DNA of 64,000 nucleotides, taken from positions 109,872-173,871 of the forward strand of contig CACYKH010000004.1 in assembly GCA_902774915.1 (NCBI GenBank). The letters run 5' to 3'. Positions 5,501 to 57,747 of the stretch are shown in pieces. The notes under the pieces were generated by a model that worked only from the letters and a program-made list of their open reading frames with translations, ran no database searches and was not told where the DNA came from. Each line of letters starts with the position of its first letter. The first letter of the stretch is position 1. Made by a program: the position numbers and the translations under genes. Source of the DNA: an uncultured Lachnospiraceae bacterium (GTDB lineage: Bacteria > Bacillota > Clostridia > Lachnospirales > Lachnospiraceae).

Positions 5501-6967
5501 CTTGGTGGAGAGCTTATAGTAGAGAGTACATATGGAGCAGGAACTACGTTTACATTCACAGTAGACCAGAAGAAGCCTGAAACAACTGCGGATATGATAC
5601 CTATGAACGATAATACTATCGAGCGTGTATCCAGAGAAGAGGCAGAGAAGATGTGGGCTCCAGACCTGCATATCCTTCTGGTTGATGACGTGGAGCTAAG
5701 CAGAAACGTAGCAGAAGATGTAATTAAGTCCATGGAAATCAAGTGCGATACAGCCGCAAGTGGTGTAAGCGCCATCGATATGGTCATGACAAATAAATAC
5801 GATATGGTATTTATGGATGTAGCTATGCCAGTAATGAATGGTATAGATGCACTTAGAGAGATAAGGGATCTTTGTGATGAATATTATACAAACCTCCCTG
5901 TTATTGCTATGTCAGAAGATGTTATTGGTAAGAATAAGCAGGAAATCATTGATGAGGGCTTTTCAGATGTTATTCTTAAACCATTTGATATAACAGTCCT
6001 TGCCAGTCTGCTTAATAGATTCGTGGATAACAGCAAGATAAAATACAGAACCAGTGATGTGACTCAGTATATTAGAGAATCCAGATACAGTGAAGGTCTT
6101 AAGAAAATGGAAGACCTCTTCGACGTTATCAGCGTTATTGAACGTATTGGAGGTAATATTGATGTTTATAATAGAATCCTCAGTACATTCTATAACCAGA
6201 ACAAGGATTCGGTAGAAGAGCTGAAGGAAAAGCTGGATACAGACTATAGAGGCTTTAGAAATAAGATTCATAACGTTCGTACAGGATGTCAGAATATTGG
6301 AGCGGTAGAAGCCGCTGAGATAGCATTTAGAATAGAAAATGCCATCAACATTGGAAATAAAGCCTATGTTAATAACAATATCGAGCTAATTTATGACTGT
6401 ATAAATGTAATTAATGAGTCCATAGAGAATTATATGAAGTTCGTCGAAGCTCAGAAGGGTGTAAGCGACGAAGAATACGCTAAGAAACATCAGTCTAAGG
6501 CTAATAAGACTGCTATGGAGCTGCGTCTTGAGGAAGATGCTCCAGAAGAAAAGCCAGAGGAAGAGCAGAGCCAGGAGCCAGCAACGGAAGAATCCGAATA
6601 CGATGACAACGAATATGAAGACGATGACGAGTATGAGGATGACGACGAATACGAAGACGATGATGAATATGAAGATGAAGATGATGACGAGTACGAGGAT
6701 GACGACGAATATGAGGACGATGAAGACGAAGAGCCTCAGGTAAGTGCTGGTCCAGAGATCATCGACATAAATCTTCTCAAGAAGATGAAGAAGGCTACAT
6801 ATAACGAGGATAAAGCTACAATTAATGACATCATGTTCGAAATCTGCAAGAAAGAATACGGAAATGATGATGATGAATTCATTAATGTTCTGAATGCAGC
6901 TATTCAGAAGGGCGATATGATTGAAATCAACGATCTTCTGATGACATATATCAGCCTGAAGAGCTAA
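2489..6967 (+). CDS. Propeller-type hybrid two-component sensor with degenerate kinase core
   Basis: This large membrane sensor has about 1,492 residues. ATG 2489 is preferred over TTG 2471 because it gives a clean signal peptide (KLKFILLCALMTCAACLFG) and has an AAAGGG upstream. Domains in order: signal peptide; an extracytoplasmic two-component-regulator propeller (repeats of the IWFGT/LWIGT type) to about residue 630; a Y_Y_Y domain; one TM helix near 746-770; a HisKA-like helix; a HATPase; a receiver with HILLVDD near 1061 and phospho-acceptor Asp1110 in MDVAMP; an HPt-like helix bundle with His1261; an acidic low-complexity run; and a short C-terminal domain. The HisKA motif reads NMSNEIKLPINAM, so the phospho-accepting His is Asn806. 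The N-box is also altered (ILDDSVKYT), while DTGIGIP is intact. It is therefore likely a pseudokinase, or a receiver/HPt phosphorelay device. There is no DNA-binding AraC domain, unlike many Bacteroides relatives. Confidence 0.85.
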   Translation: MKHFSQKLKFILLCALMTCAACLFGVHNVNAEDIPSDYQETLYNQDNGLGSSEVNCIYQTKSGYMWIGTDGGLYRYNGNEFRLFNLWNTDKADVYYINSLFQDTQGRLWVATNNYGLFRISGNDIYHFSDEYYSGVKCINDVCEAPDGTIYIATAYGVYTVDKASDHDILVRNETLAKHNVKGITVAQSKIWGIYNGNTIFSIDESGIVTEKSSSEYTEEELSSISSDTSGVIYIGTINSSVLHITDFDHVTVWESTKDGINSIYCYNNKTYLCTDNGVGYFDDHGSFKTLTKTSVDSYISDMIIDYEGNFWFASSKEGLYYLSKSKFSNLNKVYGIPDTLTNCVEIFDGSTYIGTDEGLFILDSEKNLVNNELTEYMAGVSVRDIIQDREGNIWFGTYRKYGVVKYQPDGGITAYNKATGLLSNMVNCLYETNDGKIAIGTEDGISIINFNGRVFKNYNYDNGLDYSNIITLYEDSEEKLYAGSDGGGLYVIENDNIKNYTDEDGLNSNVVSCITEGTDGLWIGTNNGLSYYDGTFRSISNIDFSNNIYSLILKDGTLFIVGSKGLIYSTEDNLLSTTPISERYYSVGDGLESGISNNSNSCIYNSDIYLCTGSGVMKFNIKDIETNEVPPKITISEIKVDGETYYYDQMGGELNIPSDTQRLEISFAVLSYFNRENIQVEYQLVGFDKEAEVLSSNENFEAVYTNLDGGTYVFEANAVNGDGVQCEKPISFTINKEEGLLEKKAVRIAILAFVILNILLILALIIRIYRQFNRKKKELDELNKKHEDVIKNSSAKTDYLANMSNEIKLPINAMISFATNMLKDGTENEETQKNLKEIVNKGYDVIDRVDETILLARLESGAEEAVSEPYSVTTLICDISDNMLNKLADMPIKFLVDLGENIPDILIGDFDKIKNVLDIILDDSVKYTKEGSITLSVDNYEVQQGDDKGDTRLVFSVSDTGIGIPEDKLEHLFEITYTEESKKTGSSEGMGVSLSIAKKFADVLGGELIVESTYGAGTTFTFTVDQKKPETTADMIPMNDNTIERVSREEAEKMWAPDLHILLVDDVELSRNVAEDVIKSMEIKCDTAASGVSAIDMVMTNKYDMVFMDVAMPVMNGIDALREIRDLCDEYYTNLPVIAMSEDVIGKNKQEIIDEGFSDVILKPFDITVLASLLNRFVDNSKIKYRTSDVTQYIRESRYSEGLKKMEDLFDVISVIERIGGNIDVYNRILSTFYNQNKDSVEELKEKLDTDYRGFRNKIHNVRTGCQNIGAVEAAEIAFRIENAINIGNKAYVNNNIELIYDCINVINESIENYMKFVEAQKGVSDEEYAKKHQSKANKTAMELRLEEDAPEEKPEEEQSQEPATEESEYDDNEYEDDDEYEDDDEYEDDDEYEDEDDDEYEDDDEYEDDEDEEPQVSAGPEIIDINLLKKMKKATYNEDKATINDIMFEICKKEYGNDDDEFINVLNAAIQKGDMIEINDLLMTYISLKS
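6595..6735 (+). repeat. Acidic Glu-Tyr-Asp-rich tandem repeat coding region
   Basis: Within the hybrid sensor gene, about 140 bp consist of irregular GAATATGAAGACGATGAC-type units. They encode repeats of the form DEYEDD, roughly residues 1370-1416, between the HPt-like bundle and the C-terminal domain. The repeat is near-identical at DNA level with synonymous variation, which suggests expansion by slippage. It probably acts as a highly charged flexible linker. Confidence 0.85.
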
Positions 6968-6970
6968 ATA

Positions 6971-7010
6971 AAGTAAGTTTTGTGTGGCTCCGTTCACACA
7001 AAATTTACTT
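6971..7010 (+). terminator. Long hairpin after the hybrid sensor gene
   Basis: Two 16-nt arms (6971-6986 and 6995-7010) pair with a single G-T wobble around an 8-nt loop. They lie 4 bp past the sensor stop. The trailing T-run is short, so it may be a weak intrinsic terminator or an mRNA-stabilising hairpin. The remaining 140 bp before the next gene show no further convincing feature. Confidence 0.55.
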
Positions 7011-7150
7011 TACAAATATTATGATTTTTAATATACTCACAACGGAAAAAGGATGGTATTCGACTTTTTCGAAACTATACCTAAAAGTATCACAATGCTT
7101 TATGTAAAAATCGGCATCACCTTTACACTAAATAGTGAGGGGGTGATAGT

Positions 7151-8011
7151 ATGAGGATTGGATTCATAGGTGCAGGTCGTGTGGGCTACACAATGGGAAA
7201 ATTCCTAAAGCTACATGATTATGAAGTGAGTGGCTACTACAGCCGCACAAGCGAGCATGCGAAGGACGCTGCAGCATTTACCGATACCGTATATTATGAA
7301 GATGCCAGGGAACTTATTAAAACAAGTGATGCGATTATACTTACAGTAAGCGATTCAGTAATCTCAAAGGTTTTTGACGAGATCAAGAACTATCCTGAGA
7401 TTGAAGGAAAGATAGTGTGCCACACCAGTGGCTCGGTTTCATCGCAAGTCTTTGATGAATCACCTATTCCTATTTTTGGGTATTCCATCCATCCTATATA
7501 CGCTATTTCAGATAAATATGCGTCATATAAAAATTTTTCCAATGCATTTATAACTATAGAGGGACATGAGAAGTACTTATCAGAGTTAGTAGGTATTTTT
7601 AGTCATGCTGGAATTAAAACCGGTACGCTAAAAACCGAAGATAAGTCCAAATACCATGCATCATGCGTTATGGCCAGCAACCTTGTATGTGGCATCTACG
7701 GTGCAGCTATAGAAATGATGAAATCCTGTGGATTTGACTTCGAAACATCAAATGAGATGCTTATAGGTCTGTTCAGGGATAATGCCATGGGTATAGCAGA
7801 CAAGGGACTTGTTAACCAGCTCACAGGACCAATCGACAGAAATGATGTGGTTACGGTACGTTCTCATTTAAATACAATCCCAGAGGAGATGAAGACCTTA
7901 TATATAGAGGCTTCAAAGCATGCACTGGAGATTGCAAAGATAAAAAATGCAGATAATGATTATAGCGAAATGGCGCTGCTTCTTGAGAGCGCTTCACTAA
8001 GCGAAAAATAA
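7151..8011 (+). CDS. Rossmann-like/DUF2520 oxidoreductase, candidate ketopantoate reductase
   Basis: This 286-residue protein has an N-terminal NAD(P)-binding Rossmann fold ([16 protein letters not shown] at residues 4-19) and a C-terminal DUF2520 helical domain ([14 protein letters not shown] near residue 168 onward). The start has a strong GAGGGGGTGA ribosome-binding site. It is the first gene of a run with panB 13 bp downstream, then panC, panD and coaBC. No classical panE is present in the window, so the missing step, reduction of 2-dehydropantoate to pantoate, fits this protein. From memory, a non-PanE ketopantoate reductase called PanG is encoded with pan genes in Francisella; I cannot confirm here that it is the same family. 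The fold call is firm; the reaction is inferred from context. Confidence 0.75.
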
Positions 8012-13399: not shown

Positions 13400-13451
13400 A
13401 GTTTGATATGTGATAACATACCTTTTGTTGCGGCGGAAAGCCGTAAGAAAT

Positions 13452-13518
<67 letters not shown>

Positions 13519-13523
<5 letters not shown>

Positions 13524-13616: not shown

Positions 13617-13653
13617 TTTTGTTGCGGTTTTGTTGCTTTTTAAGTGCTATAAT
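13617..13653 (+). promoter_or_regulatory. Twin TTTTGTTGC-box promoter, copy 1
   Basis: TTTTGTTGC occurs at 13617-13625 and again at 13628-13636 (period 11). Eleven nt later comes a perfect TATAAT at 13648-13653, 35 bp before the ATG of the 930-residue hydrolase gene. There is no consensus -35; the second box covers that position. The same arrangement, with identical spacings, recurs at 45674-45710. This suggests a shared activator, repressor or alternative recognition mode. Confidence 0.7.
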
Positions 13654-16504: not shown

Positions 16505-18085
16505 TTGGAAAAAAAGAAGACTCTAGAGTATAAATTGAATAGATTGGGAATTGCTGAAATTACAGAGTTTGTTGATTCCTGGATGAAAGACTATAAGGTT
16601 CCAAGCAAAAACCGAATTCGTTCTGTTTTCATGATGGAATCTATGCTTCTTGATCTATCTGAACATTTTGGTGAGAAAAAGGATATTACTGTTAAGCTTT
16701 ATAAAAGGCTGGGTGTATACCGTTTTAAACTGATATACGAGGGTGAGAAGTTTAACCCTACCAAGGAAGAAGATACAGGTCTTACTCATAACCTGATATC
16801 CAACATGGGTATGAACCCAATTTGGAGATACAAAGATAATTCGAATGAAATAACATTCGAAATTCCAAGAAATAAGATGAAGGACGAAAATGTCCTTATT
16901 CTTTCGGTTATCTTATCTATTATTGCTGGAATTATAAAACCTATTGTTCCGGCAAAAGTGAGTCAATTTATTTTAAATTATATCTTATCAACGATAACAG
17001 AATCATTTATGAATTTACTGGGTACATTTGCCGGATTAATGATTTTCTTTTCAATCATATCTGGTATTTGTGGTATGGGAAGTGTTTCCAACCTGAGCAA
17101 AAGAGGTAAGTTCATGATTTTTAATACAGAAAAGCATGGCTGTATTCAATCAATCATTTCAACACTTCTTGCTATTCCATTTTTTGCATTTAAATATGGA
17201 AAGAGTAGTGGCTCTGGAGGAATGAAAGAAATATATGATCTTTTAATGGATATCGTTCCGACAAATCCGATTACTCCATTTCTAGAAGGAAATATGCTTC
17301 AGGTGGCATTTATTGCTGTCTTAGTTGGAATAGTTTTAATTCTTTCCGGAAGTAAGGTTCAGGGACTGGTTGATCTTACCATTCAGGGAAGTTCCCTTTT
17401 CCTTAATATAATCGAATTAATTTGTAGACTGCTTCCAATTTATATTTTTGCGGCACTTACAGAATTATTCTGGGTAAATGGATTTGGTGTCTTTGTAAAG
17501 GTATGGAAGCCTGTCCTGATTTGTCTTGTAATTAATGTAGTGGTTGCTATAGCAGTTCTTATAAAATCAAGTCTTAAGTATAAGATTAGCCCTGCTTTAT
17601 ATTTTAAAAAGATATTCCCGGCTTTCCTTGTTGGACTTACAACAGCTTCTTCGGTTGCTGCATACGGTGTGACGCTTGATGTTTCAGAAAGAAAGTTTGG
17701 AATTGATTCAAGTTATACAGTATTTGCGCTTCCTCTTAAAAATATGTTTAATGTTGGAACATTTAGTAGTGGCTTTATTATTACTTTGTTCTATTTTGCT
17801 GAGTATTATCAAATTAATGTAAATATAGTATGGTTTATAAGTGTATGGGCGGTTGTTTATCTTATGATGCCGGCAGTTCCGCCTGTATCTGGAGGAACTT
17901 TGATTGTTATAGGAATTATCATGAATCAGTTTGGTATTCCTAAAGAAGCACTTGCTATAGCTGCGACATTAGTACTTCTCTTTGACTTTATAATGACAGC
18001 ATCTAAAGTTATTACCATAGAAGCTGAGATTATAGAAGAAGCAGATCATTTTGGCTTGCTTAATAAAGAAAAGCTGGCTGCATAA
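16505..18085 (+). CDS. Dicarboxylate/amino-acid:cation symporter with extra N-terminal soluble domain
   Basis: This is a 526-residue protein. From about residue 128 onward it is an SDF-family (DAACS) transporter, with multiple TM helices, a serine-rich hairpin (LTTASSVAAYGVT) and LPLKNMFNVGTFSSG and PPVSGGTL re-entrant segments. These normally bind Na+/H+ and an acidic amino acid or dicarboxylate. Residues 1-127 are soluble and not part of the usual transporter. The pattern SVFMMESMLLDLSEHFG then FKLIYEGEKFNPT resembles the N-box and G1 region of a histidine-kinase-like ATPase with altered key residues; this is tentative. The start is TTG 16505, with GGAG 7 nt upstream. It is 23 bp after the hydrolase gene and 18 bp before the DUF4428 gene, so it is in one operon with them. 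Confidence 0.8.
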   Translation: MEKKKTLEYKLNRLGIAEITEFVDSWMKDYKVPSKNRIRSVFMMESMLLDLSEHFGEKKDITVKLYKRLGVYRFKLIYEGEKFNPTKEEDTGLTHNLISNMGMNPIWRYKDNSNEITFEIPRNKMKDENVLILSVILSIIAGIIKPIVPAKVSQFILNYILSTITESFMNLLGTFAGLMIFFSIISGICGMGSVSNLSKRGKFMIFNTEKHGCIQSIISTLLAIPFFAFKYGKSSGSGGMKEIYDLLMDIVPTNPITPFLEGNMLQVAFIAVLVGIVLILSGSKVQGLVDLTIQGSSLFLNIIELICRLLPIYIFAALTELFWVNGFGVFVKVWKPVLICLVINVVVAIAVLIKSSLKYKISPALYFKKIFPAFLVGLTTASSVAAYGVTLDVSERKFGIDSSYTVFALPLKNMFNVGTFSSGFIITLFYFAEYYQINVNIVWFISVWAVVYLMMPAVPPVSGGTLIVIGIIMNQFGIPKEALAIAATLVLLFDFIMTASKVITIEAEIIEEADHFGLLNKEKLAA

Positions 18086-45646: not shown

Positions 45647-45677
45647 GCCCACCGGCCACCGCCGGTGGGCTTTTTTT
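45647..45677 (+). terminator. GroESL operon terminator
   Basis: GCCCACCGGC (45647-45656) pairs perfectly with GCCGGTGGGC (45661-45670) around CACC, followed by T7. The T-run is shared with the first TTTTGTTGC box of the next promoter. Confidence 0.95.
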
Positions 45678-45710
45678 GTTGCCCTTTTGTTGCCCTTTAG
45701 GTGTTATAAT
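45674..45710 (+). promoter_or_regulatory. Twin TTTTGTTGC-box promoter, copy 2
   Basis: TTTTGTTGC occurs at 45674-45682 and 45685-45693. Eleven nt later comes TATAAT (45705-45710), 59 bp before the GNAT gene. All internal spacings are identical to copy 1 at 13617-13653, and the bases between the box and the -10 are also similar (TTT..GTG.TATAAT). Confidence 0.7.
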
Positions 45711-45769: not shown

Positions 45770-46627
45770 ATGGCATTAACATTATTAACCCCACTAGATC
45801 TCACAAAGTTCGCACATCTTTACCCAGACGAACTTCTAGACCAGATTGAGGCAGACGAGATAATCATTGGCTACGCAGAAGAAGATCCCCTAAAAGCAAC
45901 GGGTATTCTCATGGCACACGTTGAGGAGCTTGAAGTCATGATCGACTGGCTTTTCGTTGATGAGGACTACCGAAGAAGGGGTGCTGGAAAAGCAATGCTT
46001 AACTTCTTGATAGAAAACTGTGAACAAATCGATGAGTTGGGCGGAGTTTCTATAATATTTACTCAGGAGCATGAATCCATGAAGGGGTTCCTTGATGCTT
46101 GTGAGTTTTTTGTGATTTTTGAAGAAGGTCATAAGGGCTTTGAAACAACACTTGGAGATTTCCCTAAATTCCCAGTTATTGGACCTGTCGGAGAGGTAAT
46201 GCCAATTACTGATGTTCCTGAGAGGGAGCTGGCAAGATTCTCAGAAGCAGTCAACAATTCAGCAATTCCAGGTGCGGCAGTTGATATTCCATTTGGTGCT
46301 GCAAATTATCTGCCAGAGAGTACAGTTGTTTTGGAAGATGGTAAGATCAAAGGTGTTTGTCTTATGGAAGAAAAAGACTATGGACTTTCCCTTTCATGGG
46401 CATATAACCTTAGCTCTGAAGCATCGAATTTCCCAGCACTTTTAAATAAGAGTATCAAGCTTCTTAGAAAGAAGTATGATGATGATACAGTATTAGGACT
46501 AGCCAGTCTTAGTGCAAAAGTAGATGAGATTATTGAAACTTATATACCAGTAAAGAAATCTTCCGAGATTTATCTCGGAACTTATCCTTTCGGAATTGAT
46601 TTTGATCAGTATTATAACGCTATATAA
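45770..46627 (+). CDS. GNAT family N-acetyltransferase with second C-terminal domain
   Basis: This is a 285-residue protein. The N-terminal half (about 1-130) is a GNAT fold with the acetyl-CoA motif VDEDYRRRGAGKAMLNFLI. The C-terminal half repeats GNAT-like secondary structure (GKIKGVCLMEEKDYGLSLSW) without a clear CoA loop. The acceptor is unknown. It is the first gene of the operon GNAT, alpha/beta hydrolase, cdd and 2,029-residue protein, read from twin-box promoter copy 2. GAGGAGAG precedes the ATG. Confidence 0.85.
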   Translation: MALTLLTPLDLTKFAHLYPDELLDQIEADEIIIGYAEEDPLKATGILMAHVEELEVMIDWLFVDEDYRRRGAGKAMLNFLIENCEQIDELGGVSIIFTQEHESMKGFLDACEFFVIFEEGHKGFETTLGDFPKFPVIGPVGEVMPITDVPERELARFSEAVNNSAIPGAAVDIPFGAANYLPESTVVLEDGKIKGVCLMEEKDYGLSLSWAYNLSSEASNFPALLNKSIKLLRKKYDDDTVLGLASLSAKVDEIIETYIPVKKSSEIYLGTYPFGIDFDQYYNAI

Positions 46628-46649: not shown

Positions 46650-48074
46650 GTGAGTGTTATGCCTAAAACAGTTAGACAGATTATAGAAGAAATTAATAAA
46701 ATGAAATTAATATCTGGAGATTATAGTGCATATGATTTTGATGCTTATGAGGAATATATAAATAAAGAACTCAGGGGAGAGAAGGTTAATACAGATAGTA
46801 AAGTTGGTCAGCAGATCCGTAATCTTATGATGAAGAATCCTCAGATAAGAAAGGAATTAAAGGAATCGCTTCCTCAGACTGATACAGCCAGAAAAACATA
46901 TATGCACGATCTACGTACTGTTGCATCTCTATCTGGCTGGGATAAGTTTAGAAAAGATTTCGGTGGAGCGAAAAGGAAAGCGGCAAGACGTGAGCTTCAG
47001 GAAATCGCAGAGGCTAAGAGAAAGACTCTTAATAAATCCAAGCTAAATAAGGACGCTAATAAATCCATTAGCACAGGTCGAGGTAGAAGATATTTCACAT
47101 GGATCACAAATAAATTTGGGCTAGGAAACTATGATGAAAGACATGATGAAAAGAAGCTTCATAGTTTTACCAAAGAATGCAAACACACGGAAATTAATTA
47201 TAGGACACCAGATGGTAGACTTAATGGAGCGTATTTTACTCCCGATGAGCCTAACCCATCTGGAAAGGTGGTTTTATTCTTCTCTGGATCAGGATCAACT
47301 GCAGAGGAATACAGTAAAAATGCAGTCCTGGAGTACAAAAAGCAGGGTATCCCTGTAGTTACAATGAATTATCGTGGATTCGGAAAAAGTGAGACTCTTA
47401 ATAAAAGAGGTGGTCATAAAGGAACTCCACTTAGCGAAGAGTCCATATATAAAGATGGAAAAGAAATGCTTAAATATGTTACTGATGAATTGCATGTAAA
47501 GCCTGAAAACATTATTCTTCATGGATATTCTCTTGGAGGAGCAGTTGCATCAAAGGTAGCAGCGGATTTTGCCCAGGAGCAGCAGAAAATAGCGCTCAAA
47601 GAAGGTCGTAATCCTAAGAAGCTTGGTGGCGTTGTACTCCAAAGTTCAATTAAGTCTATGTGGAAAGCTGGACATGCTCAGATTTATGAAGCATTTAAGA
47701 GTATTCCATATGTTGGTGGATTTTTAGCTGCAACTCTCGGCCATGCGCTTGGAGCATTTTCTGCAACGGAGGCTAAAATGCATTCCGGTTCTTATGACAC
47801 TCAGGCACATATGAGAAGGCTTCATAAGTTTGATCCGGATATTCCTGTTCATTATGTAAGTGGTACGTATGATGCAGGTGATGATCTGGCTCTTGATCAG
47901 ACCAATTTGCATGCTGATAGAAAAGCTAATTTTGTAAATTCTTCAGCAAGAACTTCAGATTTCGACCATGAAAATAACAAAATTGATGTAGAGGATGAAG
48001 TCCTTAATCAGATGCTTACTACAAGTAGAAATGATATTGTTAAGAAACCACAGCCAGAGGGCCCACAATTATGA
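46650..48074 (+). CDS. Alpha/beta hydrolase with N-terminal helical extension
   Basis: This 474-residue soluble protein has about 190 N-terminal residues that are basic and helical (RKAARRELQEIAEAKRK). An alpha/beta hydrolase domain follows: VVLFFSGSGSTAEEYS (oxyanion strand), MNYRGFGKSE, nucleophile elbow HGYSLGGAVA (Ser294), Asp408 in SGTYDAGDD and His440 in FDHEN. The triad is complete. There is no signal peptide. It resembles acyl-hydrolase or thioesterase folds, but the substrate is unknown. It overlaps cdd by 4 bp (ATGA). It parallels the hydrolase-bearing operon at 13689 in promoter and context. Confidence 0.82.
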   Translation: MSVMPKTVRQIIEEINKMKLISGDYSAYDFDAYEEYINKELRGEKVNTDSKVGQQIRNLMMKNPQIRKELKESLPQTDTARKTYMHDLRTVASLSGWDKFRKDFGGAKRKAARRELQEIAEAKRKTLNKSKLNKDANKSISTGRGRRYFTWITNKFGLGNYDERHDEKKLHSFTKECKHTEINYRTPDGRLNGAYFTPDEPNPSGKVVLFFSGSGSTAEEYSKNAVLEYKKQGIPVVTMNYRGFGKSETLNKRGGHKGTPLSEESIYKDGKEMLKYVTDELHVKPENIILHGYSLGGAVASKVAADFAQEQQKIALKEGRNPKKLGGVVLQSSIKSMWKAGHAQIYEAFKSIPYVGGFLAATLGHALGAFSATEAKMHSGSYDTQAHMRRLHKFDPDIPVHYVSGTYDAGDDLALDQTNLHADRKANFVNSSARTSDFDHENNKIDVEDEVLNQMLTTSRNDIVKKPQPEGPQL

Positions 48075-48514
48075 AAGATGAAGTAAGAAGATTATTAATA
48101 GATGAAGCGATAAAAGCCAGAAAAATGGCTTATGCTCCATATTCAAAATTTCTCGTAGGAGCAGCTCTCGTTGTTCCATCCGGTAATATTTATACCGGAT
48201 GCAATATCGAGAATGCATCTTACGGTCTTACTGTCTGTGCTGAAAGAGTAGCTATTTTTAAGGCAGTCAGCGAAGGACAGAGACATATCGATGCTATAGC
48301 TATAGTCGGTGCACCTCTTTTCGAAGAGGACGAAACTGCTATAGAAGGAGAAAAAACAGGCGGGGAGTATGCATTTCCTTGTGGTGCATGCCGCCAGGTT
48401 CTTGCAGAGTTCCTTCCTGAATCACAGGATATAGACGTGATTGTAGCAAAATCACAAGATGATTATAGAGTGTTCAAGCTTTCGGAGCTTTTACCATATA
48501 CTTTTAGTATATAA
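48071..48514 (+). CDS. cdd: Cytidine deaminase
   Basis: This 147-residue zinc enzyme deaminates cytidine/deoxycytidine to uridine. The active site is seen as TGCNIENASYGLTVCAERVA (zinc Cys and catalytic Glu) and PCGACRQVLAEF (two zinc Cys). A segment of about 14 residues before PCGAC (EDETAIEGEKTGGE) is longer than in short bacterial Cdd. The ATGA overlap couples it to the hydrolase gene, so a pyrimidine-salvage gene is embedded in an operon of unknown function. Confidence 0.93.
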   Translation: MKDEVRRLLIDEAIKARKMAYAPYSKFLVGAALVVPSGNIYTGCNIENASYGLTVCAERVAIFKAVSEGQRHIDAIAIVGAPLFEEDETAIEGEKTGGEYAFPCGACRQVLAEFLPESQDIDVIVAKSQDDYRVFKLSELLPYTFSI

Positions 48515-48552
48515 GCAAAAGTTGTTTTTAATTTCGCAGAGAGGAAAAAACT

Positions 48553-51500
48553 ATGCCACATTTTAACACAGTGAATAGTATTAAAATTTCAGATTATTTT
48601 AATTTGCAAAGTCATCAGACACAGAATCTTTTTAAGAAGCTTGGTCTTGAAACAGAGGAGCAGATTAAAAAGGCAATTGTCCTAGCAGTTATTGGCGATA
48701 AGATTGATCTTTATTATGCATATAAAGAGGCGGAATATGAGTATGCAGAAGCTGTTTCTTATTATGATAATTTTAAAGAGCAGTATGACCAAAAGAAAGA
48801 GCATACTCCTCAAGAAGAGGCAATGCTTAATTCAAGATTAAACAGCGTCAATACATGTAAAACAGCACTCGATAATGCAAAGGCTCCGATTGCCGATTAT
48901 TTAGAGGGCGATAAGTTTAATTTCAAGAAGGCATTTGATGAAAAGAAGGCAAAGACAGAGGATGGGAAGAAAATGCAGGCTGACGAAGTGGCCAGGTTTT
49001 TTATTCTCAGTCTTTATGATGCTGACCTCAAATCAAAGTTTAAAGACATGATGGAGATTCCTGTTAGGTTTGATGAGTATCTTTCGAAAGAAGAATCAAA
49101 GATTCTTAGTGATGATGCAAAGGATAAGGCCCAGAAGTATACAAATTACGAGCTCGATGAAATAGTTTTAGATGATAGTAATAAGATAGAAGATACATAT
49201 AAGAAAAATAAAAAGCTTGAAGACAGATTGATGTTTACTCTTATTCATCGGTCTAAAAAGGTTATGTATGAGGAGCTTGTAGATGATGATGATAATGATT
49301 ATGAAATAAATAAATTAGATGAAAAAGAAGAAGATTTATTAGATAGCGAAATTGATGATTTTATTAAGAATATAAAGCTAAACAGCATTGAAGATATTAA
49401 GAATTATCTGAATAAAATGGCTGAGATTAGAGCCAGACTTACCTGTGAGGCAGGAAAGGAAATTCAAAATCTTTCAAATATGCTTGATGGAGAGGATTTT
49501 AGAGATAATAAGGCGCTAGCTCTCTATACTTATGATGAATTTCATAGCCCAGCAAAGATGCTTTTGAAACAGTTTGATGAAGTTTATAGAAAAACAATTC
49601 CATTAGTACATGATAAAATAAAGGAATTTAACAAGGTTACTGAAGAGACTACATACGGTGAGGCTGTTTCCTTAATGGAGCTTGATGATGAAAATAGAGC
49701 TGTTTTTAATTCTTACTATGCAATAGATCAAAATGAATCAATTAAGGTTGGAAAGCTTTACGATGAAAGAGACCTTAGATTTATAAACAATAAAATTGCA
49801 ACTAACTTATTTAATAAGTATGAGAAAGAAGCAAAAGAAGCTCAGAGCAAGGCTTTTGAAAAAGCTTCAGGTTATTCTTTAGGAAAAAAACTTGAAAAGA
49901 AAGAAAATGATTACTATCTAGATGAACAGTGGGCTGAGAAATTTAGTAAAAAATTCCTTAAAAAAGCACATGGTAAAAATAATCAAATGCTTTTCAAAAA
50001 GTTTGGAGATTATGTAGCGTCTGGAAAATCTTTTGGATTAACGAATGGTAATGAGTTCTTTAATACATTAAGTGATGGAATTCCTAAGTTTGAGGAACCT
50101 CCATATAATGTAGATGAGGTTGGTCATATTCTGACTAATATTGAAATAAAGAGTGCCATTTTACCTAAAAGAGTTGACGCCTGGGAAAAAGCTAAGAAAG
50201 AAAGACCAAAAGATAAAAAGCTTCTAAGCCTAAATGTTGTAGAGGAATTAGATAAAGATATTAATAAAAATGATCTAAATAAGGATCCTAATGCTGGAAA
50301 AGTATCTAGAGCACAGGCGGAACCAGATTATAGCTGGATGGATAATTTCTTTACTCTTGAATATGCTGATTCAAAAGAAAATTTCAAGAAAAAGGAAATC
50401 CTGCAGTTTAATTCTCGTTTTAAACTGAATTTAATGGAAAATGTTAAAACCAGTTCTGCAAAGCTTGCTTCCTCTATTATTCCGAATAAGAAACAGGAAG
50501 AGGCTTATCGTTTGATGGGCCTTGAGGACGTACCTAATTCAGCAAGACTTGCTCATTATTATTTATATGTTTTAGCAACGAAACCAGGTCTTGATTTAAA
50601 GAATCTTCGTAAAATATGTGAAGATCCAGAACTTAAGAATGAGTACCTGGATTTCTGTGCAGATAATTCTTATAAAAATGAATATAACGCGGTCAAGGTT
50701 TGGGGAAAAATCTTTAAAGATGCAGCATCAAAGCTTAAAGATTATGTAATACCGGATATTGATTATAATGATCCGTATGAAATTCAGCGAAATGCAGAAG
50801 AGCTTTATGCTCTTAGAACTATTTCAAAGAATGCATCTACACTTGCGGATAAAATGTTTAAAGAGGACGCAAAGGAGCTTATATCTGTAGAAGAAAAATA
50901 TGATGTTATGGAAGCTCCAGGTTTCTTAGAGCATATTGGTTTCCTGACCCATTCGTTGGATGATGGATGGTTTGTGGTACCAACATTATCTAAGAAAAAA
51001 TACGCTCATAAAGCTTTGCTTTCTATTGCTGCAAATCGTTTTCTTGCAGGAAAGAGAATGGAACTTGTCAGGGGTAAGACTCTTGGCGAAGCAGCAGAGA
51101 GTGTTAGTAAGTCAGATGCTTTCTTAAACATTATGTCTGATAAGCAATATGTAACGTCTCAGTTAAAGACTGCATTTAAAACTGAAGATACAGCTGATTA
51201 TCTTGCATTAGATCCAGATGTAGAGCATCTCCAGAAAATTGAAAAAACCTTTGAAGTAAATGAGTCTACCAAAAAGAATGCATTTACTGTTGTTATGCGT
51301 AATAATATGGAGCTTTTCAGGCGATATAATGGTCTGCATACTTCTGATCGTCAACTTAACGAAAAGCTCGTTAAAAATATGAATAAAGTAAAATCAGTAG
51401 AAGAGATGATGGATATTCTTAATGATGTGCATCGTGATTATTATAGAAATATAAGAGCTTTTATTGATTACAAGTTTAATGCGCTTTTTACTCCGGAAAT

Positions 51501-54500
51501 CAGAGCTTTTCTTAAGAGTAATAAAATCGACATAATGGATGTCATCACTATTGATGGCATGTCTGCGAAAGAGGCTTATGGTCCACTTTATGCAGATGTA
51601 AAGGATCCAGCCGATAGAGAGAGGCTTATCCAGATGGAGGTCCTTAAGGCATATTATGATAGCAGAAATAAAGTCGAGATAAAGAATTATAATATAGATG
51701 AAAATGGAAGACTTGTTCAGGCTGGAATGCTTGGATTCTATGCTACTGAAGAGGAAGTTGAAAAGATTGCAAAGCTTTCTTCAGAGTATAAGGAGGTAAA
51801 TAAGTCATTTCTTTCAACGCTTAAGCCTCTTAAGCAGAGACTTATCAGATTGCTTCCTCGTGTTGATGGTGAGCGTGATGCTGAGAAAGAAGAAAGATTT
51901 CTTACGGGTGGTACTGATCTGTATCAATATATGGCTCAGTCCCTGCAGAAAGTAATTGAGCTTCTTGATGACAAAAAAGCTTCACCTATAGAAATAAGAA
52001 ATGCATTGGAAGAGCTCCAGGCGAATGCCGCAATTTATTATAAAGAGAGAAAGGGTATCCTGTTCGGACCAAGAAAGGGTAAGGGAACAGGACGACTTGA
52101 AGTGTCAAAATATCTCAGGGCGACTCTCCCTAATATGATCATGACATATGATAATATGATGAAATCAACTGAGCTTACATATTCTTTTGGTGCATCATCG
52201 TCGACTCCTATGACAGCATCTATAGAAGAGCTGGATAAAGAGATTAATCTTATAAGTAATAATGTTGGACATAGTCTCGATATTACTGATGAAAAGATTG
52301 AAGAATATACTAAATCTGCTAAAGAAAATGCTGATGCTACTGAAGCTAAGGCTCATGCAATCAGAAATATAATTGACTTCATGAGGCGGAATTATAAAGG
52401 TAATATAAAAGCAGACTATACTGTAAAGGATCCAGATCAGATGATCGAGGATGTTACGAATGCGACGGCAGTTGATACAGCAACGGCAAAAGTCTATAGA
52501 AATCTTCTTAAGGAAGTCTTTAAAGAAGATTGTTCGGTGTATGGTGCAGAATTCGTTTTGGCAGAACTGAAACTTGGAAATGTTGCAAAAGATATAGAGA
52601 AGCTGTCAACAAATCCTGAGTACAAGATTAATACTATTAATAGATTACATGATTTTAATGAAGTTGCTGCAGTGCAGAGGAACGTTGTCAAAGTAGAACA
52701 AGAACACGCCAAGGCGATGTATGACCAGCGTATGCAGTATTATAATAAATATAGAAGTTTGGTTGGTGGTCAAGCAGTTGGTATTCTTACTGAAACATAC
52801 GGAAAAGATGTATTCAAGCAGATGAGACTTACTGCCGATAAAACTAATTATTCAATTTCAAGAACAGCAGTTTCTACTATTGCTATACTTGCCATGGCTC
52901 TGGAACAGGTTGAGAATCGTGATAAGTATACAATTGAACAGCTAATGGATACAGACCAATTAAAGAATGAAAAAGAGCAAAAAATCAAAGAAATCTTCGA
53001 GCTCATGGTAAGAGTTGGAAATAAAGAGAATGATCCTAATGATGCCAAAGAAGCAAACAAGGAACTGGCTCGTTATCTTTATTATGGAAGTAAGAAATTA
53101 ACTGAAAAATGTGATGAGCTAGCTAACCAGATAAATTTTGATGATGAATATTTCGATTGCACGAAAGAATTTGCAATAATGACTGCAATCGGTGGGCTTC
53201 AGTATGATGGATGGCAGGAATTTAAACATTGTAGTGAAGAAGTAATTGAAATACACAGACAGGAAACTGGTATGCGTCCGGAGGAATTTTATTCATATGA
53301 TCTTTTTTCAGAAGATTTTCTTAGAACCCTAAATCCAGCAAGCGGAAATTATACTACTATGCCACATTATGCAAAGGCAGTTAATTTCCTGGAAGGAAAA
53401 GGGGGTAGAGAAATGTCTGTTAATCTGATCAAGTCTGTTACTACTATGAATGTAACCCGTCAGGTTTTTAAAGATTGGAATAAAGAAAATAAAAAGAAAC
53501 CTATTCCTTTTTCTCAGTGGTCATTAAAGAATAATGCAAATGCCAAAACTGTTTTAACATTCGCAGATATTACGGGGCCGGCTTCTGATATGGTTAGTGA
53601 TTATGAATTGGAAGAATTATCACCAATTAAAGATCAGGTGATAGATGGAACTTTGCTTAGCGATATTTCCATTGAAATTGAAAGAAAAAGCCACGCTTTT
53701 CTTGGATTTTACGGATTGCCTGGCGCGGATACTTTTTACGAAGAATTAAACTACAAGCCTCGTGTTTCTGAGATTATAATTAAAACAAATGAGAAGCTTA
53801 AGAATTATGATAAGGAGCTTGTTGGGGCGTCAGATATTAGAAAAAAATATATAAATAGCGCTAAAAATGCGGTTAATGCCCTTAGCAAGTATCTAATGTT
53901 TGGGCTTTCAATTAATTCTTCCAGAAAAGAAGCCATAAAGAATTGCTACGCTGCCATTATACAAGAAAAGTGGTGTAAGGTCTTTGAAGAAAAAGGTTAT
54001 ACTGGAGAGGATCTTGTGAGTGCAGTTAAAAATGCAACTGAGTACACGATGAAGCATAAACCTTATGTGACATATGCTACTAATAAGTATTCTATCGGAG
54101 CTTTAGCTCTTGAATATAAAGCCGATGAACTTGTAAATGATTGTGACGAAGGTATTTTTATGGGCGAGGCAGCTCTTGCGGCAAACAGACTTCTAAAAGG
54201 AAATTATAGAGGAAGAGAAGATGATCTTGTAAGAGATGTTGCATATTGTCGTACTGCACAGATACTTAGGATAAATGAATATATTCCTAATGATGCAGAT
54301 ACAGATAAAAAAATAACATGCAGACAATACTTTAATACATTATTAAAGAGTGGTCCGTTTAAGAATAGCCTTAGAAATGTTAATCCAGATAATGGATTTG
54401 ATCAGGATAATGCTCATTTAGGATTCCGAAGTCCAGTGCAACTGCTGAAAGAGACTTTTGATGACAGTCAGATTACGAAGGAAATTCGTGATCAGGAAAA

Positions 54501-54642
54501 TGCTGTTTATTATGCAAGGAAAGAAAAGCACGATAGGGAGATTGAAGCAAGACTTGCCAGACAGAATGCGATAGACGCTGAAAATGCCAGACGTCAAGGT
54601 GGTGTTGTCCCTCCAAAGAGTAACCTGGGATCAAAGAAATAA
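48553..54642 (+). CDS. Giant 2,029-residue leaderless protein of unknown function
   Basis: This soluble protein is predicted to be almost wholly alpha-helical and rich in Lys, Glu and Asp, with no signal peptide or TM segment and no enzyme motif that I recognise. An acidic patch (VDDDDNDYE) lies near residue 240. Segments at about 825-840 (AANRFLAGKRMEL) and 1876-1890 (AANRLLKGNYRGRED) resemble each other, hinting at internal repeats. Residues about 1155-1185 (AAIYYKERKGILFGPRK then GTGRLEVSKYL) resemble the Y...GPR...RL segment of the 930-residue protein at 13689. The C-terminus (ARLARQNAIDAENARRQGG) is a charged helix with a Pro-Gly tail. GAGAGGAAAA precedes the ATG, 38 bp after cdd. It is the last gene of the twin-box promoter operon. 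A structural or secreted-effector role is conceivable but not shown. Confidence 0.6.
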   Translation: MPHFNTVNSIKISDYFNLQSHQTQNLFKKLGLETEEQIKKAIVLAVIGDKIDLYYAYKEAEYEYAEAVSYYDNFKEQYDQKKEHTPQEEAMLNSRLNSVNTCKTALDNAKAPIADYLEGDKFNFKKAFDEKKAKTEDGKKMQADEVARFFILSLYDADLKSKFKDMMEIPVRFDEYLSKEESKILSDDAKDKAQKYTNYELDEIVLDDSNKIEDTYKKNKKLEDRLMFTLIHRSKKVMYEELVDDDDNDYEINKLDEKEEDLLDSEIDDFIKNIKLNSIEDIKNYLNKMAEIRARLTCEAGKEIQNLSNMLDGEDFRDNKALALYTYDEFHSPAKMLLKQFDEVYRKTIPLVHDKIKEFNKVTEETTYGEAVSLMELDDENRAVFNSYYAIDQNESIKVGKLYDERDLRFINNKIATNLFNKYEKEAKEAQSKAFEKASGYSLGKKLEKKENDYYLDEQWAEKFSKKFLKKAHGKNNQMLFKKFGDYVASGKSFGLTNGNEFFNTLSDGIPKFEEPPYNVDEVGHILTNIEIKSAILPKRVDAWEKAKKERPKDKKLLSLNVVEELDKDINKNDLNKDPNAGKVSRAQAEPDYSWMDNFFTLEYADSKENFKKKEILQFNSRFKLNLMENVKTSSAKLASSIIPNKKQEEAYRLMGLEDVPNSARLAHYYLYVLATKPGLDLKNLRKICEDPELKNEYLDFCADNSYKNEYNAVKVWGKIFKDAASKLKDYVIPDIDYNDPYEIQRNAEELYALRTISKNASTLADKMFKEDAKELISVEEKYDVMEAPGFLEHIGFLTHSLDDGWFVVPTLSKKKYAHKALLSIAANRFLAGKRMELVRGKTLGEAAESVSKSDAFLNIMSDKQYVTSQLKTAFKTEDTADYLALDPDVEHLQKIEKTFEVNESTKKNAFTVVMRNNMELFRRYNGLHTSDRQLNEKLVKNMNKVKSVEEMMDILNDVHRDYYRNIRAFIDYKFNALFTPEIRAFLKSNKIDIMDVITIDGMSAKEAYGPLYADVKDPADRERLIQMEVLKAYYDSRNKVEIKNYNIDENGRLVQAGMLGFYATEEEVEKIAKLSSEYKEVNKSFLSTLKPLKQRLIRLLPRVDGERDAEKEERFLTGGTDLYQYMAQSLQKVIELLDDKKASPIEIRNALEELQANAAIYYKERKGILFGPRKGKGTGRLEVSKYLRATLPNMIMTYDNMMKSTELTYSFGASSSTPMTASIEELDKEINLISNNVGHSLDITDEKIEEYTKSAKENADATEAKAHAIRNIIDFMRRNYKGNIKADYTVKDPDQMIEDVTNATAVDTATAKVYRNLLKEVFKEDCSVYGAEFVLAELKLGNVAKDIEKLSTNPEYKINTINRLHDFNEVAAVQRNVVKVEQEHAKAMYDQRMQYYNKYRSLVGGQAVGILTETYGKDVFKQMRLTADKTNYSISRTAVSTIAILAMALEQVENRDKYTIEQLMDTDQLKNEKEQKIKEIFELMVRVGNKENDPNDAKEANKELARYLYYGSKKLTEKCDELANQINFDDEYFDCTKEFAIMTAIGGLQYDGWQEFKHCSEEVIEIHRQETGMRPEEFYSYDLFSEDFLRTLNPASGNYTTMPHYAKAVNFLEGKGGREMSVNLIKSVTTMNVTRQVFKDWNKENKKKPIPFSQWSLKNNANAKTVLTFADITGPASDMVSDYELEELSPIKDQVIDGTLLSDISIEIERKSHAFLGFYGLPGADTFYEELNYKPRVSEIIIKTNEKLKNYDKELVGASDIRKKYINSAKNAVNALSKYLMFGLSINSSRKEAIKNCYAAIIQEKWCKVFEEKGYTGEDLVSAVKNATEYTMKHKPYVTYATNKYSIGALALEYKADELVNDCDEGIFMGEAALAANRLLKGNYRGREDDLVRDVAYCRTAQILRINEYIPNDADTDKKITCRQYFNTLLKSGPFKNSLRNVNPDNGFDQDNAHLGFRSPVQLLKETFDDSQITKEIRDQENAVYYARKEKHDREIEARLARQNAIDAENARRQGGVVPPKSNLGSKK

Positions 54643-54724
54643 ATTCTATCATTTGGGTCAAAATTTGTTATAATAGTCTTTGTGTTTTAGTAAACTAATT
54701 ATCTGGTTTAAGGAGATTATAATT

Positions 54725-57682
54725 TTGACTGTTTTTAAAGATAGAAATGATAGAACGCTTGAACAATTAAAAAATGAATTGGAAGCTCTTGGCACTTACG
54801 AAGTTATTAAGTGCCAGGAGACTCCTGAAGAAAATGGAGTAGGCCTTGTTCTCAGTCATAAGAAGACTAAAGCACGTGTGTCAGTTGTGCTTAATGATGA
54901 CGAGAATAAGGTTTTTGCTATTGGTTTCAGAACACCTCCGACCAACTCTAAGGGTATTCAACATATTGTAGAGCATACAGTTCTATGTGGATCAAAGAAA
55001 TATCCTGCAAAGGATCCTTTTGTTGAACTTGCAAAGGGATCTCTCAATACATTTCTTAATGCTATGACATACAGTGATAAAACCGTATATCCTATAGCAA
55101 GCTGTAATGACAAGGACTTCCGTAATCTTATGGATGTTTATCTGGATGCAGTTTTCAATCCTAATATTTATTCCCGTGAGGAAATCTTTAAGCAGGAAGG
55201 ATGGCATTATGAGCTGGCCGACAGGGACAGCGATGTCATTATAAATGGTGTTGTTTATAATGAGATGCGTGGTGTTTATTCATCTCCAGATGCAGTCCTT
55301 TCCAATGTGATCAATCAGAAGATGTATCCTGATACTGCTTATGGCGTTGATTCCGGTGGAGATCCGGATATCATCCCAAGTCTTACAAGAGAAGAGTATC
55401 TGGACTATCATAAGAATTATTACCATCCATCAAACAGCTATATCTATTTATATGGTGATCTCGATGCAGTAGATCAGCTTAAGTTTATCGACGAGAGTTA
55501 TCTTAAGGATTACGACTATCTTTATGTGCCATCAGAAATTAAGCTTCAGAATGCATTTGACGCACCAATAGTTGCAAAGACTGGTTATTCAATTACCCAG
55601 GACGAAGCTGAGGATAGTGAATCTATTGTCAGCTACAACGTGGTAACGGGTAAGTGTACTGACAAGTACCTTGTAACTGCTATGAATATCATTCAGTATA
55701 TTCTGGTGGATTCACCGGGGGCGCCTCTTAAGAAGACGATTATCGATGCCGGACTTTGTTCGGATGTTGAATCTATGCTTGATAATACAATGCTTCAGCC
55801 ACTGTTCAGTATTGTGGCGCGTGAGGCAAAGGTTGAGGATGCTGAAAAGTTCCGTGATCTTATTGAATCTGAGCTTGCTAAATATGTAGAGGAAGGACTT
55901 GATAAGGAAGCGCTTGAGGCTGCCCTTAACCTTTTCGAGTTCAGATATAGAGAGAGCAACTTTGGAAGATATCCTAAGGGTCTCATGATTGGACTTACGG
56001 ATTTCCAGGGCTGGCTATATGATGACGACCTGGCACAGGATACTCTGTTTGGACTTGAGGTTTACCAGAAGCTTCGTGAGGGAATTGATAAAGGTCTGTT
56101 CGAAGGGCTCATTAAAGATTACATTATAAATAATAATCATAAGTCGCTAATTACAGCTGAGCCTGTAGTTGGGCTTAATACAGATAAGGATAAGGCTCTT
56201 AAAGAAGAGCTGGCTCAGTTTAAGGCGGGTCTTAGTGAGGAAGAGATAGATGCGCTCATTAAGGATACTCAGCATCTGAAGGATTATCAGACAGAGCCTT
56301 CAACTCCTGAGGAGCTTGCGACTATTCCGCTTCTTGATATTAAGGATATTGATCCTGAACCAAGAAAGCTGTTTAACAGAGAAACAAAGGTGGAAGATGT
56401 AAAGCTTATTGCACATGATATCTTCACTAACGGTATTACATACATTTCAATGTATTTCGATATCAGCGATTTGTCTTTTGAAGATTTAGGAAAGATGCAG
56501 CTTATTGTTGAGCTTCTGAAATACGTTGATACAGATAATTATTCATACAACGATCTGGCAAAGAAGATAAATCTGTCTACCGGTGGGATTGCATTTGACA
56601 TTGGCAGTTTTGACCTGCTGGATAAGGAGTGTATGCCATATGTCTGCTGCAAGGTGAAGACATTTGACAGAAATGTGGATGCCGGAATGGGGCTTGTGGA
56701 AGAGATTATCCTGAGATCGCATATTACTGATAAGAAGAGAGTGAAAGAGGTGATTTCTGAGATTAAGTCCAGCGGCAAGATCAGCCTCGTTGAGGGTGGC
56801 CATTCAACCGCGAAGGGAAGAGCGCTTTCGTACTTCAAGAAGTCCGCGAAGATCATTGAAGGGCTGGAAGGAATTGACTACTACAGATTTATCGATAAGC
56901 TGGATAAGAATTTCGATGAGATGTATGATGAACTGGCTGAGGATTTGAGCCGTCTTTATAAGAAGATGTTCAGAAGTGATAATCTCATCATTTCCTATAC
57001 TTCGGAGCGAGATGAGAAGCTTCTTGCTGAGCCGCTGAAGAGTCTTATCAGTCAGCTGAGTGATGAGAAGATTTCAGACGAGAAGATGGTTGTGCCTCTT
57101 AAGGCTACAAGCGAAGGATTTAAGACATCCTCCAAAGTACAATATGCATGCGTTGCTGCGGACTATGCTTCTACAGGACTTAAGTTTAATGGAGCGCTGC
57201 AGGTTCTTAAGACCATCATGAGCTATGACTATCTGTGGATCAATGTGCGTGTTAAAGGCGGAGCTTATGGATGCATGTGCGATTTCAGTCTGTTCGGACA
57301 TGAATTCTTCGTTTCCTATAGAGATCCAAATCTCAAAGAGACCTACGATGTTTACGAGAAGGCTTATGAATATGTGAAGAACTTCGACTGTTCCGACAGA
57401 GACATGACGAAGTACATAATAGGTACCATGTCAGCTTCTGAAATGCCACCTTCACCTTCAGGTCTTGGTGCGCTTTCATTTGCACAGTACATTACTGGTG
57501 TAACTGATGAAGAGAGGCGCGAGCAGCGTCGTCAGGTTCTTGCTTCGAACCAGGAGACTATCCGAAACCTTGCACCATTCATCAAACTGCTTTCAGACAG
57601 TAGTCTGAGATGTACAGTAGGTGGTGAGGAGAAGATAGCCGAATCCTCCGAACTATTTGAGTCGATTGAAAATCTTGTGTAA
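54725..57682 (+). CDS. M16C insulinase-family metallopeptidase (PreP-like)
   Basis: This zinc peptidase has about 985 residues and resembles presequence protease PreP and Clostridium insulinase-like enzymes, which degrade peptides in a closed chamber. The inverted zinc motif HIVEH lies in IQHIVEHTVLCGSKKYPAKD (about residue 78), and ELAKGSLNTFLNAMTY follows. The start is taken as TTG 54725 (LTVFKDRND), 9 nt after AAGGAG; the open frame extends to 54680 without a better signal. The four-domain length fits M16C. A TATAAT at 54669 may be its promoter. Confidence 0.92.
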   Translation: MTVFKDRNDRTLEQLKNELEALGTYEVIKCQETPEENGVGLVLSHKKTKARVSVVLNDDENKVFAIGFRTPPTNSKGIQHIVEHTVLCGSKKYPAKDPFVELAKGSLNTFLNAMTYSDKTVYPIASCNDKDFRNLMDVYLDAVFNPNIYSREEIFKQEGWHYELADRDSDVIINGVVYNEMRGVYSSPDAVLSNVINQKMYPDTAYGVDSGGDPDIIPSLTREEYLDYHKNYYHPSNSYIYLYGDLDAVDQLKFIDESYLKDYDYLYVPSEIKLQNAFDAPIVAKTGYSITQDEAEDSESIVSYNVVTGKCTDKYLVTAMNIIQYILVDSPGAPLKKTIIDAGLCSDVESMLDNTMLQPLFSIVAREAKVEDAEKFRDLIESELAKYVEEGLDKEALEAALNLFEFRYRESNFGRYPKGLMIGLTDFQGWLYDDDLAQDTLFGLEVYQKLREGIDKGLFEGLIKDYIINNNHKSLITAEPVVGLNTDKDKALKEELAQFKAGLSEEEIDALIKDTQHLKDYQTEPSTPEELATIPLLDIKDIDPEPRKLFNRETKVEDVKLIAHDIFTNGITYISMYFDISDLSFEDLGKMQLIVELLKYVDTDNYSYNDLAKKINLSTGGIAFDIGSFDLLDKECMPYVCCKVKTFDRNVDAGMGLVEEIILRSHITDKKRVKEVISEIKSSGKISLVEGGHSTAKGRALSYFKKSAKIIEGLEGIDYYRFIDKLDKNFDEMYDELAEDLSRLYKKMFRSDNLIISYTSERDEKLLAEPLKSLISQLSDEKISDEKMVVPLKATSEGFKTSSKVQYACVAADYASTGLKFNGALQVLKTIMSYDYLWINVRVKGGAYGCMCDFSLFGHEFFVSYRDPNLKETYDVYEKAYEYVKNFDCSDRDMTKYIIGTMSASEMPPSPSGLGALSFAQYITGVTDEERREQRRQVLASNQETIRNLAPFIKLLSDSSLRCTVGGEEKIAESSELFESIENLV

Positions 57683-57699
57683 ATATATATTGTTATAAA

Positions 57700-57734
57700 A
57701 ATAAGTCAGTGGGACCGGGTCTGATTGACTTATT
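57700..57734 (+). terminator. AATAAGTCA hairpin, family copy 2
   Basis: AATAAGTCA (57700-57708) pairs perfectly with TGACTTATT (57726-57734). The inner GGGACC/GGGTCT bases pair partly. The right arm overlaps the region just before the era ribosome-binding site, so it could attenuate era rather than simply terminate. Confidence 0.6.
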
Positions 57735-57747
57735 AGGAAGTGAGAGT

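Follow-up and report, generated by a model that had tools for sequence, protein, structure and literature searches.

In the Dot/Icm system of Legionella, two-component response regulators (PmrA/CpxR-type) activate many scattered effector genes via a repeat box near the −35 element; the effectors have no signal peptides, and the machine and its substrates are co-ordinated. Regulators of the PhoB/OmpR type use 11-bp direct repeats replacing the −35 element (the pho box), and PhoB and WalR rely on tandem sites in the −35 region with a period of approximately 11 bp. In the target promoters of SARP activators, direct repeats recur at 11 or 22 bp, and 8 bp separate the 3′ repeat from the −10 element; those of SARP/AfsR in Streptomyces have two direct repeats of 11 bp, which overlap the −35 element (PMC10936776). 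Here, we describe a promoter with two copies of a box (the twin box), which occurs twice in a 64,000-nucleotide stretch of DNA from an uncultured Lachnospiraceae bacterium (contig CACYKH010000004.1, positions 109,872 to 173,871 of the forward strand; hereinafter, the window), and the regulon to which it belongs. We think it probable that this is a two-component-controlled effector regulon of a type IV secretion system (T4SS) in rumen Lachnospiraceae, analogous to that of Legionella Dot/Icm.

The initial annotation had reported that two distant operons share the arrangement TTTTGTTGC-N2-TTTTGTTGC-N11-TATAAT at 13617-13653 and 45674-45710, and both sites were confirmed with zero mismatches. At up to three mismatches they are the sole matches to this pattern in the window, with none expected from 100 shuffles. 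By pattern matching on the plus strand, the operon 1 promoter comprises box 1 (13617-13625), box 2 one 11-bp period further, at the place of the −35 element (13628-13636), and the −10 element TATAAT at N11 (13648-13653), the corresponding positions for operon 2 being 45674-45682, 45685-45693, and 45705-45710. The claimed likeness of the bases preceding the −10 element also holds, both window sites reading TTTNNGTGNTATAAT; position 30 is G in 20 of 30 sites of the genome. A lone TTTTGTTGC without a second box lies at 13423-13431, with a tRNA-Gly gene (13452-13523) 20 nt downstream.

The genome containing the window (2.61 Mb, 67 contigs, 98.9% complete) yielded 21 sites for the full pattern at up to three mismatches, with none in the reversed control, and 32 sites for a relaxed pattern, with one in the reversed control. 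Since both patterns already require a −10 element, the twin box alone was also searched for, giving 31 matches vs. none in the reversed control. Among the 30 of these loci that were examined, a TA...T hexamer lies at exactly N11 in 28, while of the other two, locus L241 has its −10 element at N10 and locus L228 (contig C2, C2:190349) has none; an open reading frame (ORF) starts 29-222 nt past the −10 element in 29. None of the 30 falls within a called gene of more than 100 aa. The consensus of 30 sites, including one of the variant class (TGTTGGACATTTGTTGGACA-type), is TTTTGTTGCGCTTTTGTTGCGCTTTTTGTGTTATAAT, with 37.7 bits. Thus, the sharing of the promoter stands, while its limitation to two operons does not: there are about 30 such promoters in this genome, and the scan that the initial annotation called for reveals a genome-wide class preceding giant leaderless proteins and a T4SS locus. 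That the regulon is real, and larger than first noted, is well supported.

Chance or a repeat artefact is ruled out for the twin box by the reversed controls and the spacing. A mobile, low-complexity or terminator-derived repeat carried along with the genes has likewise been largely refuted, and we give it next to no credence. The box is indeed T-rich, and both window copies adjoin T-runs, box 1 of operon 2 overlapping the T-run 3′ of a hairpin-like repeat after a Cpn60/GroEL-family gene; on the other hand, such a repeat does not account for the fixed spacing to the −10 element, the ORFs 29-222 nt downstream, the empty reversed control, and the conservation of the box, and not of its flanks, at orthologous pilin promoters. 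At C16:23073 (L039, 1492-1511), the upstream box doubles as part of a palindrome, GCGCAACAGATTTGTTGCGC, and GCGCAACA shortly precedes the twin-box site C16:11912.

The geometry resembles that of SARP targets in its 11-bp period and in the distance from the end of the second 11-mer to the −10 element, which is 9 nt in 28 of 30 loci, the repeat centre being at approximately −32.5 (as estimated from the −10 element) vs. −29.5 in the afs box. It likewise resembles PhoB/OmpR-type operators in having 11-bp direct repeats in the −35 place, and differs from them in the box sequence, the nearby LytS-type kinases, and the regulon.

The genes under these promoters were tallied by operon for 30 box-only sites, leaving out C2:190349. 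Large leaderless soluble proteins, 328 to more than 3,500 aa long, are driven by 19 promoters, as the first gene in 17 operons and as the second or a later one in two. Three further promoters belong to the T4SS locus and precede genes for the pilin and for proteins of 780 and 1782 aa, the latter two with signal-peptide-like starts. The common function suggested for the two window operons is supported beyond them, by the leaderless giants and the T4SS locus. The remaining eight promoters drive two lipoprotein-like, four membrane, one glgC-like, and one GH3-like protein, named by reading of the sequence, without family searches; unrelated housekeeping genes, the occurrence of which would speak against a regulon, are thus seen in a small minority of cases (the glgC-like and GH3-like genes, two out of 30). 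Beside twin-box promoters, SpoIIE-type phosphatases recur with STAS/anti-sigma-like partners (C12:43-52 kb, C12:58-70 kb, and C2:137-156 kb; two at C2 are confirmed by Pfam, those on C12 were recognized by reading), and partner-switching may contribute to this control. Small proteins with approximately two transmembrane (TM) segments and a similar C-terminal one lie under twin boxes in several genomes (L044:1576-2226, L179, L196, L200); perhaps they are an unrecognised part of the T4SS machine.

The dedicated regulator proposed in the initial annotation now has a candidate, as the presence of sites tracks one response regulator, here called SARP_A, across loci and genomes. SARP_A (C2:171728-172519, 263 aa) lies beside LytS-type kinases at the T4SS locus and has a receiver domain (PF00072, 1e-20). 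The AlphaFold model of its 77% identical relative from locus L054 (33 sequences, pLDDT 87.8) comprises a receiver, a winged helix, and a short helical tail, and its best Foldseek matches in PDB are full-length OmpR/PhoB response regulators (E=6e-10), so that the predicted fold has both the receiver and the OmpR-type winged helix that define the OmpR/PhoB type. SARPs, in turn, combine an OmpR-type DNA-binding domain with a BTA domain; SARP_A differs from SARP/AfsR in having a receiver, and Pfam gave no match to BTA. Because no BTA domain was found, we class SARP_A with the OmpR-type response regulators, its site being SARP-like. Just upstream of it, a receiver-only regulator of 119 aa is encoded (C2:172568-172927), the counterpart of which in a relative (L053:5676-6443, 256 aa) is a receiver plus DNA-binding protein. 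LytTR-type binding, considered in view of the LytS kinases, was rejected, as the box and its spacing do not fit the LytTR consensus.

For comparison, VirD4 was used to retrieve 80 contigs from relatives. In the 25 relatives' T4SS loci with SARP_A, as in our own, the box immediately precedes the pilin gene (a variant box in a few cases), while the flanks diverge. Of the 80 loci, 51 extend 7 kb or more upstream of VirD4; in this set, all 25 loci with SARP_A have the box, as against one of the 26 without SARP_A. That one, L111, has a variant box (L111:9192, GTGGTGC.../TTGGTGC) and a regulator (6770-7564) approximately 39% identical to the paralog SARP_B and 35% to SARP_A, as if the box and the regulator had changed together. 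At the level of genomes, SARP_A (at least 69% identity) occurs in 30 of 61 genomes of the genus, including all 28 with VirD4; the median number of sites is seven with SARP_A vs. zero without it (Mann–Whitney U test, p=1.5e-10), and three or more sites occur in 27 out of 30 genomes vs. one out of 31 (the exception, G009, is 70% complete), these being correlations among related genomes uncorrected for kinship. Sampling across the family, with a threshold of E≤1e-100, showed SARP_A in at least three of 250 genomes and at least two of 249 genera, lower bounds given that at most 10 candidates were scored per genome. By sequence comparison, SARP_A is the probable regulator of this promoter class.

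The class could be real and yet be controlled by another OmpR-type regulator, for instance C2:178016 with its kinase 176774 or a WalR/PhoP-like one, the T4SS locus being merely one of its targets. The tandem sites of PhoB and WalR share the approximately 11-bp period in the −35 region, the TGTTAT half-site resembles that of WalR, and C2:178016 lies approximately 5.5 kb from SARP_A. Its absence from the relatives' loci is uninformative, as it is approximately 13 kb from virD4 in its own genome and hence would lie beyond the 10-kb flanks of these loci. We nevertheless hold this to be quite unlikely, since all loci and almost all genomes that have several boxes also have SARP_A, and it is missing from those without boxes, and since the behaviour of SARP_B suits regulators of this family. 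SARP_B (C2:173094-173894) is a response regulator with a C-terminal domain, matching PF00486 (30.5 bits, cut-off 26.2), which is not matched in SARP_A. The box variant GTTGGAC occurs in seven out of seven relatives' loci with SARP_B vs. three out of 44 without it. In our genome, the second twin box, TGTTGGACATTTGTTGGACA, has six exact or one-mismatch positions, at C2:167954, C2:173027-173057 (two overlapping, forming a triple repeat), C2:176664, C6:238328, and C12:34555, and precedes, among others, the operon of the LytS kinase 165950 and the response-regulator genes ending with SARP_A. A natural reading is a cascade in which SARP_B would activate SARP_A and the kinase, which in turn would activate the T4SS and effectors.

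The locus at C2:155-171 kb contains the VirB4 ATPase, VirD4 coupling protein, pilin, and membrane channel component that characterize a T4SS: VirD4 (PF02534, 3.7e-54), a VirB4-like protein (PF19044, 2.8e-18), T4SS_pilin (8.4e-9), and a VirB6-like protein of 674 aa, assigned from its position and appearance only; no VirB8-like part was identified there. Around it are two LytS-type kinases, a cell-wall hydrolase, SARP_A, SARP_B, and an OmpR regulator with a HisKA kinase, and eight candidate effectors lie within approximately 41 kb. VirD4 is found in 28 of the 61 genomes (79-91% identity, one fragment 71%), the closest full-length one from an isolate being that of Lachnospiraceae bacterium NE2001 (91%). 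No VirD4 match at E≤1e-100 was obtained in two genomes that have retained SARP_A and the sites, G011 and G004 (the latter a single contig), and VirD4 is split in two in G039; the system may be decaying in these genomes.

The machinery looks derived from an integrative conjugative element (ICE), as VirD4 belongs to the CD1115 family (291 bits, NCBIfam cut-off 250), the pilin passes the Mbov ICE model, and VirB4 approaches one (535 bits vs. a cut-off of 590). The same regulon might therefore include a DNA-moving conjugation machine, an ICE remnant or an active one, in which case the giants would be induced alongside it without being its substrates and would stay in the cytoplasm or at the cell surface; it agrees with this that most candidate effectors sit elsewhere in the genome, outside the T4SS locus. 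Unlike in CD1115-type conjugative systems of Firmicutes ICEs, however, the machine is tied to a large protein regulon, and no relaxase of families PF03432 or PF02486, by which we looked for a conjugative element, was found at E≤0.001 in this 67-contig genome (the search covered these two families, and each query matches in one of 14 control genomes). The 19 locus proteins scanned gave no relaxase or integrase match either, SARP_A is present in every genome of the genus with VirD4, and the number of sites follows its presence. We thus regard a purely conjugative role as rather unlikely.

The leaderless proteins share features beyond their promoter. Nearly all have no signal peptide or TM segment by hydropathy (one segment is present in L035_2844). 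Their C-terminal tails are hydrophilic and basic when compared with other soluble proteins of at least 250 aa: the tail hydropathy is −1.38 vs. −0.32 (p=5e-11) and the charge +3.2 vs. −0.1 for 29 regulon proteins and 67 controls of our genome, and −1.51 vs. −0.58 (p=7e-9) and +5.5 vs. −0.8 (p=3e-10), respectively, for 25 and 58 proteins of G005, G003, and G017. Starts with MKE or MP are a further common trait of the leaderless proteins, replicated in the latter three genomes (M[KR][ED] in 10/25 vs. 2/58, MP in 10/25 vs. 4/58). These sets exclude L177, removed by hand for its signal-peptide-like start, and first genes that have TM segments by hydropathy, encode less than 150 aa, are open at the end of the stretch, or start more than 170 nt away; the tail set of our genome contains the GNAT-like W45770 as well as L038, the frame of which is open at the stretch end. 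Among domains that effectors are known to carry, PI3/PI4-kinase or Fam20C-like ones are found above a cut-off in the proteins of L036, L047, L158, and L169 and below it in L168 and L174, calpain-like ones in L048 and L171, an ABC1 kinase-like one in L039, and a weak C39-like one in L036. Sequence searches in PDB with W13689, W48553, and the L036, L039, L047, and L048 proteins gave no match at E≤0.01. A C-terminal motif, P-G-[LM], noticed post hoc in our genome (11/32 vs. 0/167), was dropped as a universal signal given 0/25 in other genomes.

In the window, all genes concerned lie on the plus strand. The statement that each operon encodes a soluble hydrolase plus a large leaderless protein holds for operon 2 and fails for operon 1, because W13689 is followed there by a sodium:dicarboxylate symporter. 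W13689 (13689-16481) is a leaderless soluble candidate effector of 930 aa ending in ...MPQMGM; it has no match in Pfam (E≤0.001; best 0.066), NCBIfam (E≤0.01), or PDB sequences (E≤0.01), and its single-sequence AlphaFold model is unusable (pLDDT 35). Strong relatives (E<1e-100) occur in nine of the 61 genomes, namely in eight with SARP_A, our own being counted among the nine, and in the incomplete G009; the twin box lies upstream of seven of the 11 genes (two with N10), and none was found for four. The SDF-family symporter (16505-18085), 23 nt after W13689, is not effector-like and is possibly co-transcribed with it.

Operon 2 begins with a GNAT-like protein of 285 aa (45770-46627); a similar gene lies beneath a twin box in G017 (L185/L213) and G059 (L211), and no twin-box site was found at its loci L212 and L214. 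Next is W46659 (46650-48074; 474 aa from GTG, 471 aa from the ATG at 46659), an alpha/beta-hydrolase candidate effector with a GYSLG elbow and relatives in five of the 61 genomes, including our own. The nearest solved structures for its residues 189-314 are chains of RTX (MARTX) toxins (E=2.3e-19), the matched part of which is taken to be their alpha/beta-hydrolase part. In this match and in the GYSLG elbow it resembles the MARTX alpha/beta-hydrolase effector domain (PMC4640098), while being a stand-alone putative hydrolase of 471 aa with the match covering residues 189-314 only. A Dot/Icm effector hydrolase model matches W46659 weakly (1.1e-4), far below the model cut-off. A cytidine deaminase family protein (48071-48514) separates it from W48553 (48553-54642), a leaderless soluble candidate effector of 2029 aa. 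Unlike the typical island placement, this giant and the preceding hydrolase sit amid housekeeping-type genes (48071-58791), namely the cytidine deaminase, an M16/PreP-like peptidase, and, by reading, an Era-like GTPase.

In the mechanism that we propose, the twin box would serve as both the operator and the −35 substitute of a dedicated promoter class. SARP_A, with its receiver and OmpR/SARP-like winged helix, would bind the two 11-bp direct repeats head-to-tail, at approximately −43 to −22, and recruit RNA polymerase to the −10 element that follows after 11 nt, thereby switching on the chromosomal T4SS (VirD4, VirB4, VirB6-like protein, and pilin) and, genome-wide, some 25-30 leaderless, often gigantic proteins. 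The latter, with their basic and hydrophilic C-terminal tails (probably unstructured), would most likely be the substrates (effectors) of this T4SS. As recipients, eukaryotic rumen protists or fungi seem likelier than bacteria.

Several observations weigh against this interpretation. As regards the regulator, SARP_A has no Pfam match past the receiver and thus no DNA-binding-domain match, the whole-chain TM-scores of the L054 model are only about 0.4, the OmpR regulator C2:178016 and SARP_B are also close by, and the genomes compared are kin. As regards the substrates, the regulon proteins are richer in K, N, and Q along their whole length and not in the tails alone; the sharp C-terminal motif did not replicate elsewhere (0/25 vs. 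0/151), a looser one did so weakly (4/25 vs. 3/151), and only the general basic tail was replicated among the tail features. Few candidates reach a Pfam cut-off (five out of 27 scanned in our genome, four out of 26 elsewhere), and ordinary bacterial proteins, too, can have kinase- or calpain-like folds. Finally, the regulon is not purely secretion-related, because eight out of 30 promoters drive lipoproteins, membrane proteins, or glgC-like or GH3-like genes, and the relaxase search had the restricted reach given above.

The likeness to Legionella Dot/Icm comprises a response regulator, a repeat box near the −35 element, scattered candidates without signal peptides, and a co-ordinated machine; the differences are the Gram-positive rumen host, the machine of the CD1115/ICE type, the receiver plus SARP/OmpR-like regulator, and the putative status of the substrates. 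A more far-reaching possibility, which we put forward tentatively and hold to be doubtful, is that a clade of rumen Lachnospiraceae, the genus of Eubacterium ruminantium, has made an ICE-derived T4SS into an effector injector, aiming dozens of giant effectors (kinase-like, calpain-like, and MARTX-type lipase-like) at rumen ciliates or fungi and switching them on together by a receiver/OmpR-type two-component regulator via the twin box, which would amount to a Gram-positive gut commensal living in the manner of Legionella. Searches of open-access papers on T4SS effectors (in Lachnospiraceae, the rumen, or Gram-positive commensals), on secretion in E. ruminantium, and on rumen ciliates with secretion systems turned up no account of such a system.

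If the effector interpretation is true, this would be, to our knowledge, the first large T4SS effector arsenal in a Gram-positive commensal, the promoter signature would allow candidate effectors to be recognized directly in the genomes of a rumen genus that is partly in culture, and the contact between bacteria and protists in the rumen would be opened to genetic test. Even without injection, this defines a regulon of about 20-30 giant proteins, the majority without a match among described families, together with its probable regulator and kinases.
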